From the NCBI GenBank assembly GCA_013003155.1, contig JABDKF010000197.1, positions 1-52,780 on the forward strand: a stretch of DNA of 52,780 nt. The letters run 5' to 3'. The notes under the pieces were generated by a model, which was given only the letters and a program-made list of their open reading frames with translations, was not told the DNA's origin and did not search any database. The DNA comes from Woeseia sp. (GTDB lineage Bacteria > Pseudomonadota > Gammaproteobacteria > Steroidobacterales > Woeseiaceae). A program made the position numbers and the translations under genes. Below, in pieces: positions 1,285-6,589 of this stretch (position 1 is its first letter; every line of letters begins with the position of its first letter).

Positions 1285-1410
1285 GAGTATACGCATGTCG
1301 GCGAAACTCGACAAGGCCGTGGGAGGACCCGGCGACGTTATACAAAAAAAACAAGTTCCTAAGGCAGCAGAAAGGGTCTATCGTCTTTGCAGTCACCCAG
1401 GGAGGCGGCC

Positions 1411-1974
1411 ATGAACATTTTTAAGATGAAACGATTTTCACTAACCAGCCTGACTCTGCTACTTGGCTTTGCAACTGCAAGTAGCGCAATTGCGGCCGAT
1501 GAGACTGCCGCGAGCAAAATTGCTCGCGCGATGTCCGCGGCACCCGCGAGCATCTCGGCGGAGGCGACAATAATAGACGTGGACGGAACAGTACTGCGGG
1601 AAGGGAGTAACGGCTGGACCTGCCTGCCCGGCGTGCCGCTAATCCCGGGCGACATGCACCCGATGTGCAACGACGAAACGTGGACACGCTGGTTGAATGC
1701 CGCAGCTGCCGGCGAGCCGTTTTCGACGGACGTCGTTGGCTATTCCTATATGTTGCAAGGCGATGCACTGGTGCATAACCACGATCCCGGTGCGACGCAA
1801 CCGGACGATAGCGGGCACTGGGTTCAGGAAGGCCCGCACCTGATGCTGTTGATGCCGAGCAGCGCGTCGTTGAGCGGCATGAACAACGATCCTAACGTTG
1901 CCGGCCCCTACGTGATGTGGGGCGAGACGCCGATGCGGCACGTTATGGTTCCGGTGGGCGCACGCGACAAGTAA
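1411..1974 (+). CDS. Exported protein of unknown function
   Basis: ATG at 1411 (MNIFKMKRFSLTSLTLLLGFATASSAIAADE) with signal peptide; no family recognised. Confidence 0.7.
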   Translation: MNIFKMKRFSLTSLTLLLGFATASSAIAADETAASKIARAMSAAPASISAEATIIDVDGTVLREGSNGWTCLPGVPLIPGDMHPMCNDETWTRWLNAAAAGEPFSTDVVGYSYMLQGDALVHNHDPGATQPDDSGHWVQEGPHLMLLMPSSASLSGMNNDPNVAGPYVMWGETPMRHVMVPVGARDK

Positions 1975-4092: not shown

Positions 4093-6360
4093 TTATTCGA
4101 TCACTCTGCTAATTGAGCCAGAGTATTCACTCTCGATGCCGTCGTCATTAAACGCGGTGCTCACGAAATACCAGGTGCCGGGTTCCAGATTCTCAACGAC
4201 GTAGGTCGTGATGCCCGGGTTGTTGATAGTGACCGACTCGGTGTAGTTGCCCTCTTCGCGGCCCCAGTAAAGTCCGATTGCGGCCAAATCGGTCAGCGGC
4301 GTGCCGTCGGTATTCTGCGTCGGCAGTGTCCAGTTCAAGGTCACCGATCCCAGCGCTATCGCGTCTACCGAAACCGAGAACGGCGCGAGCGCGTCGCTGG
4401 CCTGGCCGTCGCTAACAGAAATATTGATGTCACTGTAAGCGCCAACGTCACCGGCGTCCGGCGTGCCATACAGGCGCCCTGTGCTGGCGTCAAAGCTGGC
4501 CCATGATGGTTTCCCGGAAACGCTGAACGTCAGTGCGTCGCCATCCTCGTCGGTTGCCGTCGGCCGAAAATCATAGGACGTTCCGGACACGACCGCGAGG
4601 ATTGGCTGGCCGCTAATTACCGGCGCTGAGTTAATGACCGGAGGCGGCGCGACGGCGTTGACCGAAATCGAGAACGCGCCGAGTGAGTCAATTGCCTGGC
4701 CATCGCTCACGGTAATGTTGATGCCGTGGAAATCACCGACGTCCGCTGCACCAGGGGTGCCATACAAGCGTCCCGTTGCATTGTCAAAGCTGGCCCAGGA
4801 AGGCTTGCGCGTTACTACAAAACTCAGCGGGTCGCCGTCGGCATCTGTAACTGCCGGCAGAAAACTGTAGGGGGTGCCCTCCAGGACCGACGACGCCGGT
4901 TGACCGCTGATGACTGGCGCCGAATTACTTACGGGCGGCGGATTTTCTTCACTGACCGAGTTGACCGTGATTGAAAACGGGCCGAGCGTCGCGACACTCT
5001 GACCATCACTGACCGAGATACTGATGCCTGTGTGCACAACCACATCCACGGTCTGCGGGGTTCCATAGAGCCTGCCCGAATTACCGTCAAAGCTGGCCCA
5101 CGATGGCTTACCGGAAATACTGAAGGTCAACACATCCCCGTCGGCATCCGCTGCTGCAGGCAGAAAGCTGTAAGGGCTGCCGGATATGACCGTCAACGCC
5201 GGCTGCCCGCTGATTTGCGGAGCCGCGTTAGACGTTCCCGAGTTCGGAGCCGGCTGCTCCGTGTCGCTGCCGGCAACCTCGTTAACTTGCTCGATCTGCT
5301 CGTCAGTGCCTTGCGATACCGTCACGAGCGTCGAATCAAGCGCTGTGCGCCCATCGGAGGTCAGGTTTGCGCGCACATCGGCGGACGACATGCCGATGGT
5401 TACGTTATCGAGTTCGTCGAGCAGCGTCGTGAGTTCAGCGGCAGGCTGCAATGCTTGCGCAGCCGCAACACCGCGTCGAGCCGCATCAAGCATTTCTGCG
5501 GTTACCGACAACTCACTAAAATCGCGTGAAGGTGCGGCACCGAGAACCTGTTCCGTCGCGCTCTCCAGTCGCCCCAACGCGTCACTGCCCTGAACACGAA
5601 GTTCGTTGCGCATTGTTTCCACGCTTACCTGGGCCTGTGCCAGAGCAAAAACCGCCGCGATGCGGGAATCAGTGAGCTCACCTCCACGTCCGTCAAGTTT
5701 GCCATCTATCAGGTCCGATGCGATTGCCGAAACGACGGTATCACCGGTCGCCACGTAACCTGCACCGAGCAGTGTGTCACGCGTACGGCGAACAATCTCG
5801 CCCAGTGCTTCTGACGCCCGCACAACTTCTGCAATATTTGACCCATCGACCTCCACATCCATGACCGCAGCGCCGGTCATAGTGTCGAGCCCGTTGTTGA
5901 GCGAATCACTGACGACATTCAGAGCTGCACGGACATTGGCATCATTGACGCCGCCGGGCAGTTCTCTTGCGATTGCAACAGCAAAAGTCGTAAATGGGTT
6001 GATATTCGCAACAGACCTGTCGCCCGGGCTCAGAACCGCGCTTTGCATCGCGAAGTCCGGTGCCTCCATCGTGACCAGGTCAATGCCGTTGGTCGCCGAG
6101 ACCAGCAACGGGTAGTGGCCGTCATTGGTCTGGATAGTGACCGCGAAATCAGCGGTAGGCGATCCGACCAGAGTGGCGAGGTCGGCGCCATCCGCACCTA
6201 CGATGCTGATATCCGCCGAAATAATGGGACCGTCACCCACACTGCCGGTGATGTTGTGATCATAGTTGTCGTCCGATGGGAGACAACCCGCAAGCGCCAC
6301 GAGCGACACTGCTGCGAAAAACTTGCGGAAGATCTTGTTTACTAGGTACTGCTTGGACAT
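4093..6360 (-). CDS. Lipoprotein with three tandem putative-Ig (He_PIG/cadherin-like) repeats and a C-terminal fibronectin-III-like domain; likely surface adhesin/matrix protein
   Basis: Lipobox SLVALAGC; repeats of SAPVISGQP...YSFLPA.TDADGDPLSF..KPSWASFD..TGRLYGTP...ISVSDGQ; C-terminal GSVTLNWTLPTQNTDGTPL...YVVENLEPGTWYFVSTAFNDDG. Confidence 0.85.
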   Translation of the reverse strand: MSKQYLVNKIFRKFFAAVSLVALAGCLPSDDNYDHNITGSVGDGPIISADISIVGADGADLATLVGSPTADFAVTIQTNDGHYPLLVSATNGIDLVTMEAPDFAMQSAVLSPGDRSVANINPFTTFAVAIARELPGGVNDANVRAALNVVSDSLNNGLDTMTGAAVMDVEVDGSNIAEVVRASEALGEIVRRTRDTLLGAGYVATGDTVVSAIASDLIDGKLDGRGGELTDSRIAAVFALAQAQVSVETMRNELRVQGSDALGRLESATEQVLGAAPSRDFSELSVTAEMLDAARRGVAAAQALQPAAELTTLLDELDNVTIGMSSADVRANLTSDGRTALDSTLVTVSQGTDEQIEQVNEVAGSDTEQPAPNSGTSNAAPQISGQPALTVISGSPYSFLPAAADADGDVLTFSISGKPSWASFDGNSGRLYGTPQTVDVVVHTGISISVSDGQSVATLGPFSITVNSVSEENPPPVSNSAPVISGQPASSVLEGTPYSFLPAVTDADGDPLSFVVTRKPSWASFDNATGRLYGTPGAADVGDFHGINITVSDGQAIDSLGAFSISVNAVAPPPVINSAPVISGQPILAVVSGTSYDFRPTATDEDGDALTFSVSGKPSWASFDASTGRLYGTPDAGDVGAYSDINISVSDGQASDALAPFSVSVDAIALGSVTLNWTLPTQNTDGTPLTDLAAIGLYWGREEGNYTESVTINNPGITTYVVENLEPGTWYFVSTAFNDDGIESEYSGSISRVIE
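4360..5232 (-). repeat. Three tandem about 95-aa Ig-like repeats coded within the lipoprotein
   Basis: PSWASFD..(S/T)GRLYGTP and SDGQ motifs recur three times; boundaries approximate. Confidence 0.85.
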
Positions 6361-6364
6361 GCGA

Positions 6365-6388
6365 TTGCTCCTGCCAGCTGGCAGGCAA
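6365..6388 (-). promoter_or_regulatory. SD-sequestering hairpin, candidate expression platform of the riboswitch
   Basis: mRNA reads UUGCCUGCCAGCUGGCAGGAGCAAUCGCAUG; the SD AGGAG (6368-6372) lies in the 3' arm, 7 nt before the ATG at 6360. Confidence 0.55.
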
Positions 6389-6503
6389 TCCGATGTCGAT
6401 ATGGAGCGCTTTTCTCGTGATTTCGCACGAGACGCGTAGGCGGGAACCGTCTTTGTTAGACGGGCACGGCACGCTGTTCATTTTGAACAGATTCCGCGAT
6501 TCC

Positions 6504-6589
6504 TACTGGCGGCCCCGCTGTCATAGGTTGTTACCCTTAGACCGGTGGCTTTGCGTCCCAATCTTTCGATCGGTTTGCCTTTTTCAGTA
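6504..6589 (-). ncRNA. Cyclic di-GMP-I riboswitch (GEMM-I)
   Basis: Minus strand: UACUGAAAAAGGCAAACCGAUCGAAAGAUUGGGACGCAAAGCCACCGGUCUAAGGGUAACAACCUAUGACAGCGGGGCCGCCAGUA. Shows P1 (UACUG/CAGUA), P2 with GAAA tetraloop, GGGACGCAAAGCC core, CUAAG..UAUG tetraloop receptor and the AGCGGGG 3' element. Confidence 0.95.

Follow-up and report, generated by a model that had tools for sequence, protein, structure and literature searches.

A c-di-GMP-I riboswitch, probably a translational OFF switch, in the leader of a predicted surface lipoprotein gene of Woeseia

We propose that the leader of a Woeseia sp. gene encoding a predicted surface lipoprotein acts as a c-di-GMP-I riboswitch on translation of the lipoprotein, probably as an OFF switch that silences the gene when c-di-GMP is bound. 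Computation shows the aptamer, its position ahead of the gene, the conserved association of aptamer and lipoprotein, a conserved hairpin over the start site and the complementarity between this hairpin and the aptamer; that the leader binds c-di-GMP, that it switches, and in which direction, is what we infer from these sequences and from folding models.

The leader element is a c-di-GMP-I (GEMM-I) aptamer, correctly named in the original prediction. When the whole window (the complete stretch of DNA analysed here, 52,780 nucleotides) was scanned with cmscan, c-di-GMP-I was the single Rfam match above threshold: RF01051 aligned to positions 6589-6505 of the minus strand with 85.1 bits (gathering cut-off 35; E 1.9e-15), over its full length (model positions 1-87 of 87) and with two non-standard pairs only. 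The Rfam scan had been named in advance as a check on the minus-strand leader, and the leader passed it. The closing helix P1, UACUG (6589-6585) with CAGUA (6508-6504), extends the aptamer to 6504, and the core reads GGCAAACC-GAUC-GAAA-GAUU-GGGACGCAAAGCC, followed by CUAAG...CUAUG and AGCGGGG; thus P1, the core, the tetraloop receptor and AGCGGGG, the diagnostic motifs originally claimed, are all in the sequence. The ligand-contact positions G20, A47 and C92 of the aptamer Vc2 correspond to G6579, A6552 and C6509. Aptamers of the 3',3'-cGAMP type carry A instead of G at G20. Here the selectivity position is G (G6579), in line with the c-di-GMP rather than the cGAMP type, and A6552 and C6509 are also kept in the sequence and in the alignment. 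The leader RNA (6589-6505) would be expected to bind c-di-GMP.

The end of the aptamer lies 144 nt before the ATG, which makes it part of a protein gene's 5' leader; the span first pointed out, 6361-6589, comprises the aptamer and the entire leader. Because intrinsic terminators flank it on both sides, one separating the riboswitch from the TonB receptor gene upstream (6951-6916; 10-bp stem, GAAA loop, 7 U, from sequence and fold) and one 3' of the lipoprotein gene (4039-4015), the aptamer leader and the lipoprotein gene form their own transcription unit. A consensus promoter scan gave no convincing sigma-70 promoter 5' of the aptamer. A transcription terminator was also sought between the aptamer and the lipoprotein gene and none was found, and for this reason we set transcriptional attenuation aside. 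The whole leader folds much more stably than shuffled sequence (z -4.1). Three short stable hairpins (6490-6474, 6463-6447 and 6432-6413), read from the sequence and the minimum free energy fold, stand between the aptamer and the switching strand described below.

The first gene 3' of the leader (4093-6360, minus strand) encodes a 755-aa protein with a signal peptide and a lipobox, VALAGC with Cys26, that is kept in the homologues. As originally described, it is an Ig-repeat lipoprotein. Its three He_PIG (putative Ig) repeats lie at 4355-5235, with approximate boundaries (PF05345, E 1.7e-25, in three stretches, and alignment), and its C-terminal domain (4099-4353), which is common to the riboswitch-linked lipoproteins, is Fn3-like. 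This domain falls just below the Pfam cut-off for PF00041 (23.0 vs 25 bits); in a profile built from 20 homologous C-terminal domains, 18 members match PF00041, which supports the assignment. The conserved N-terminal region (aa 37-375; 5236-6252), with its GSVGDGP motif, has no Pfam match. AlphaFold2, run with an alignment of 26 homologues, modelled it with confidence (pLDDT 92) in two parts, first a small beta-sandwich with weak resemblance to transthyretin/CnaB and then an all-helical domain; Foldseek found no PDB match at E<=0.001, and a sequence search of the PDB found no close one. NCBIfam offered no useful name for the lipoprotein. Such an Ig/Fn3 architecture would suit a protein that binds at the surface, and the lipobox together with the Ig/Fn3 repeats suggests that the lipoprotein may have a surface-exposed binding role. 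Elsewhere in the window, a 195-aa ORF (1387-1974, plus strand) begins like a signal peptide and matches nothing in Pfam or NCBIfam.

The link between aptamer and lipoprotein is real and conserved across many genera. The window's genome (3.28 Mb in 351 contigs; a same-genus relative is available as a single contig of 4,059,891 bases) contains three GEMM-I aptamers, and after the second of them comes a 142-aa lipoprotein that shares the Fn3-like domain. C-di-GMP signalling is present in this genome, since it has 27 GGDEF and 16 EAL domain matches. GEMM-I aptamers occur in 46 of 60 related genomes, with up to 21 per genome. After 21 of 100 sampled riboswitch loci we found an ORF ending in the window's C-terminal Fn3 domain, and wherever the frame was complete the domain ended 2-6 residues from the stop. 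When the search started from the domain, a GEMM-I aptamer lay just upstream of 21 of the 30 strong Fn3-domain matches in 16 Woeseiaceae genomes, a proportion that is biased upward, as the profile was built from riboswitch-linked proteins. Relatives were also collected from named genomes by protein similarity to the long lipoproteins, whose aligned parts show 36-50% identity with the window's protein. Of the 78 loci obtained, 52 carry GEMM-I on the same strand; several of the 26 loci without it start at a contig edge. The GEMM-I-bearing relatives include cultured Steroidobacteraceae (Steroidobacter, Peristeroidobacter and Povalibacter), whose leaders are without the window's start hairpin. The Thiodiazotropha relatives have no GEMM-I.

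Other arrangements were seen in the same survey. The third GEMM-I of the window's genome (L003, 76-1617 minus, G000:C251) precedes a predicted membrane protein with no Pfam match, and in two relatives (L051, L082) its homologues likewise come after GEMM-I. At L137 and L141 (G026:C17, G106:C104), Fn3 lipoprotein genes stand in tandem, each headed by a GEMM-I of its own, and two tandem GEMM-I were found before one Ig-type lipoprotein gene at L143, L149, L156, L171, L172, L176, L178, L180 and L191, mostly in Steroidobacteraceae. An M23 peptidase (PF01551) is the GEMM-I target in 25 of the 100 loci (L040, L046, L098 and others) and an FAD-linked oxidase (PF01565/ALO) in 19 (L076, L050, L096 and others); at these loci the target-specific aptamer variants GGCATACC and GGCACACC replace GGCAAACC. 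Some FAD-oxidase leaders (L084, L070, L096, L108; oriented positions about 315-345) carry another anti-aptamer stretch, of the GTGTCTTTGGCA type, which is complementary to their own TGACAAAGGCACA and lies about 30-45 nt before the start codon. At L052 and L107, GEMM-I stands directly before an ATPase gene with AAA and FHA domains, whose start is apparently near the aptamer.

The expression platform that we propose centres on a hairpin (6397-6356) that sequesters the start site of the lipoprotein gene. The Shine-Dalgarno (SD) sequence AGGAG (6372-6368), 7 nt 5' of the ATG at 6360, and the AUG both lie inside it, and the AUG is paired in the fold. Its stems are GACAU/AUGUC, GAUUGC (6390-6385)/GCAAUC (6368-6363) and CUGCC (6384-6380)/GGCAG (6375-6371), with the loop AGCU. 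The hairpin core is conserved: its pattern, TTGCCYGYY-loop-GGCWGGAGC, contains nothing of the aptamer, and in 107 genomes of the family it had 12 matches, 11 of them just 3' of a GEMM-I aptamer and the twelfth inside an apparent coding sequence (the reversed control had 4 matches). Bulges and misalignment limited what RNAalifold recovered from the alignment of start hairpins to the inner stem, with 5 pairs of which one shows compensatory changes; the basis for the outer stem is single-sequence folds. About half of the Fn3-lipoprotein leaders are without the start hairpin, so the hairpin mechanism is not universal in the regulon, and the M23-peptidase leaders and most FAD-oxidase leaders have neither this hairpin nor the same anti-aptamer strand.

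The strand that masks the start site in this hairpin has a second, mutually exclusive partner within the aptamer. The switching strand, AUCGGAUUGCCU (6394-6383), can pair either with the SD arm (6375-6363) or with the aptamer strand AGGCAAACCGAU (6580-6569), which comprises J1/2 and the 5' side of P2 and to which it is complementary at 11 of 12 positions. On its 5' side the hairpin holds GGNUUGCC, a near reverse complement of the invariant aptamer sequence GGCAAACC, and the complementarity extends past GGCAAACC into the variable P2 strand. Our model suggests that, without c-di-GMP, strand 6394-6383 would pair with the aptamer 5' strand 6580-6569; this would open the aptamer and leave the start region weakly structured, and the lipoprotein would be made. 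With c-di-GMP bound, strand 6580-6569 would be locked in P2 and the ligand junction, and the released strand 6394-6383 would close the hairpin over the SD and the AUG, stopping translation. That the hairpin is conserved and complementary to the aptamer speaks for translation being shut down by c-di-GMP.

We scored this complementarity across leaders. In the 20 leaders of the window's subfamily, the last 58 nt scored 24.9 against their own aptamer strand, compared with 12.8 +- 0.5 for shuffled leaders and 16.4 for 49 other GEMM-I leaders. Swapping aptamers between leaders lowered the score from 24.9 to 23.1 +- 0.5 (permutation p 3.5e-4), a modest effect among 20 leaders that are mutually related and were picked for having the hairpin, with a p-value that is only indicative. 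The gain with the own aptamer was clearest where P2 differs from the majority, as in the window's leader. Since the SD arm, GGAGCAAxCC, resembles the invariant GGCAAACC, the potential of the leader to pair with GGCAAACC could have arisen as a by-product of the SD arm sequence.

For the window's leader without ligand, the state with aptamer plus hairpin came to -86.3, the anti-aptamer state to -90.1 and the unconstrained minimum to -91.4 kcal/mol. The state energies come from folds with enforced pairs and take no account of ligand, tertiary contacts or the order of folding during transcription. Across 19 leaders, the energy of the anti-aptamer state minus that of the aptamer state ranged from -14.1 to +3.4 kcal/mol, and therefore the ligand could plausibly decide the state in many of them. 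Once the switching strand was occupied, the window's start hairpin weakened from -16.4 to -7.5 kcal/mol and the modelled probability of an unpaired AUG rose from about 0.01 to 0.5-1.0. The modelled SD accessibility of the window's leader did not rise with the strand occupied (0.40 to 0.38 or 0.33); its mean over the 19 leaders went from 0.40 to 0.63, with a rise in 15 of the 19.

The original prediction had inferred that the lipoprotein is a c-di-GMP-responsive surface or biofilm factor, and it is partly supported. The aptamer type, the gene order, the c-di-GMP machinery and the conserved pairing agree with it, and the part of the protein in adhesion or biofilm formation is putative. The implied sign, c-di-GMP promoting an adhesion factor, differs from what the leader predicts, as the hairpin and its complementarity to the aptamer favour repression. 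An ON switch would rescue that sign, with c-di-GMP ultimately exposing the start, via the three leader hairpins or transcript stability, and the lipoprotein acting as an adhesin at high c-di-GMP. Many c-di-GMP-regulated surface proteins are indeed produced at high c-di-GMP, GEMM-I riboswitches of both signs exist (Vc1/Vc2, Bc2; PMC6366702), Woeseiaceae prefer attached life (PMC12175321), and the leader does carry additional stable hairpins (6490-6413). However, we found no element that competes with the start hairpin solely in the ligand-bound state, and the one conserved competitor of this hairpin is the aptamer itself, which points to OFF. We therefore regard an ON switch as unlikely, while giving it more weight than the explanations that follow.

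A less probable explanation still is that the start hairpin is constitutive or controlled by a protein, for example through a CsrA/RsmA site near the GGA, and that the aptamer works through a different mechanism, perhaps Rho-dependent termination or decay of the RNA. The SD does have a GGA in a bulged hairpin, two matches to the CsrA family occur in the window's genome, and in several leaders the SD stays partly accessible even within the hairpin. Against this, the hairpin core sits 3' of GEMM-I in 11 of its 12 matches, the other being in a coding region, and its 5' strand tracks the P2 of its own aptamer, which a CsrA site would not need. Finally, it seems very improbable that the aptamer responds to a different cyclic dinucleotide, or that it has degenerated and lost the ability to switch. 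Some members of GEMM-I do select cGAMP, and C. difficile has some aptamers that do not function (PMC6366702), but this one carries the selectivity G, matches the model over its full length with just two non-standard pairs, is conserved ahead of diverged lipoproteins and belongs to a genome that encodes many DGC/PDE domains.

Returning to the OFF switch, we tentatively extend it to a c-di-GMP regulon of Woeseiaceae, bacteria abundant on the seafloor; this broader reading may be correct, and we give it clearly less credence than that of the single leader. Surface lipoproteins sharing the Fn3 domain would be switched off translationally by GEMM-I, with one leader strand pairing either with J1/2-P2 or, by virtue of aptamer-like sequence there, with the ribosome site. 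Woeseiaceae are widespread in marine sediments and are mostly attached to grains or particles (PMC12175321). If this regulon reading is true, the Fn3 lipoproteins would belong to the mobile or detaching state, at low c-di-GMP, of bacteria known to live on sand grains. Two genome studies of Woeseiaceae leave c-di-GMP and riboswitches unmentioned, and our search for literature linking Woeseia or Woeseiaceae with c-di-GMP or a riboswitch found none. The conserved riboswitch-lipoprotein module provides concrete candidates for the cell-surface response of Woeseiaceae to c-di-GMP, and the cultured Steroidobacter, Peristeroidobacter and Povalibacter relatives make the aptamer-lipoprotein link practical to study. 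If the platform holds, it would also offer a sequence-level model for translational GEMM-I switching.

Compared with known systems, the element is of a known kind, the regulon is new to the literature searched and the platform model is plausible. The aptamer agrees with the GEMM-I family (RF01051) in its full-length match, its P1-P2-P3 layout, its GAAA tetraloop and receptor and its ligand-contact positions, and differs from it in nothing; no description of the target protein family or of the expression platform was found in the literature searched. A close parallel is Vc2, from the tfoY leader of V. cholerae, which PMC9262584, citing Inuzuka 2018, describes as a translational OFF switch whose masked ribosome-binding site is distant from the aptamer. 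Judged by that description, both leaders would act on translation at a ribosome site far 3' of the aptamer, with repression by c-di-GMP predicted for the window's leader. They differ in that P1 is described as the key switching element of Vc2 (PMC9262584), whereas the predicted partner in the window's leader is the J1/2-P2 5' strand. Vc1, in the gbpA leader of V. cholerae, is likewise a GEMM-I ahead of a gene for a surface-binding protein; in contrast to the repression and the start hairpin predicted here, c-di-GMP raises gbpA expression and that leader has no anti-SD sequence (PMC4744006). As for the product, the lipoprotein shares its domain types with multidomain He_PIG/Fn3 surface lipoproteins (PF05345, PF00041), from which its family is set apart by the N-terminal GSVGDGP/helical domain and by riboswitch control in many genera.
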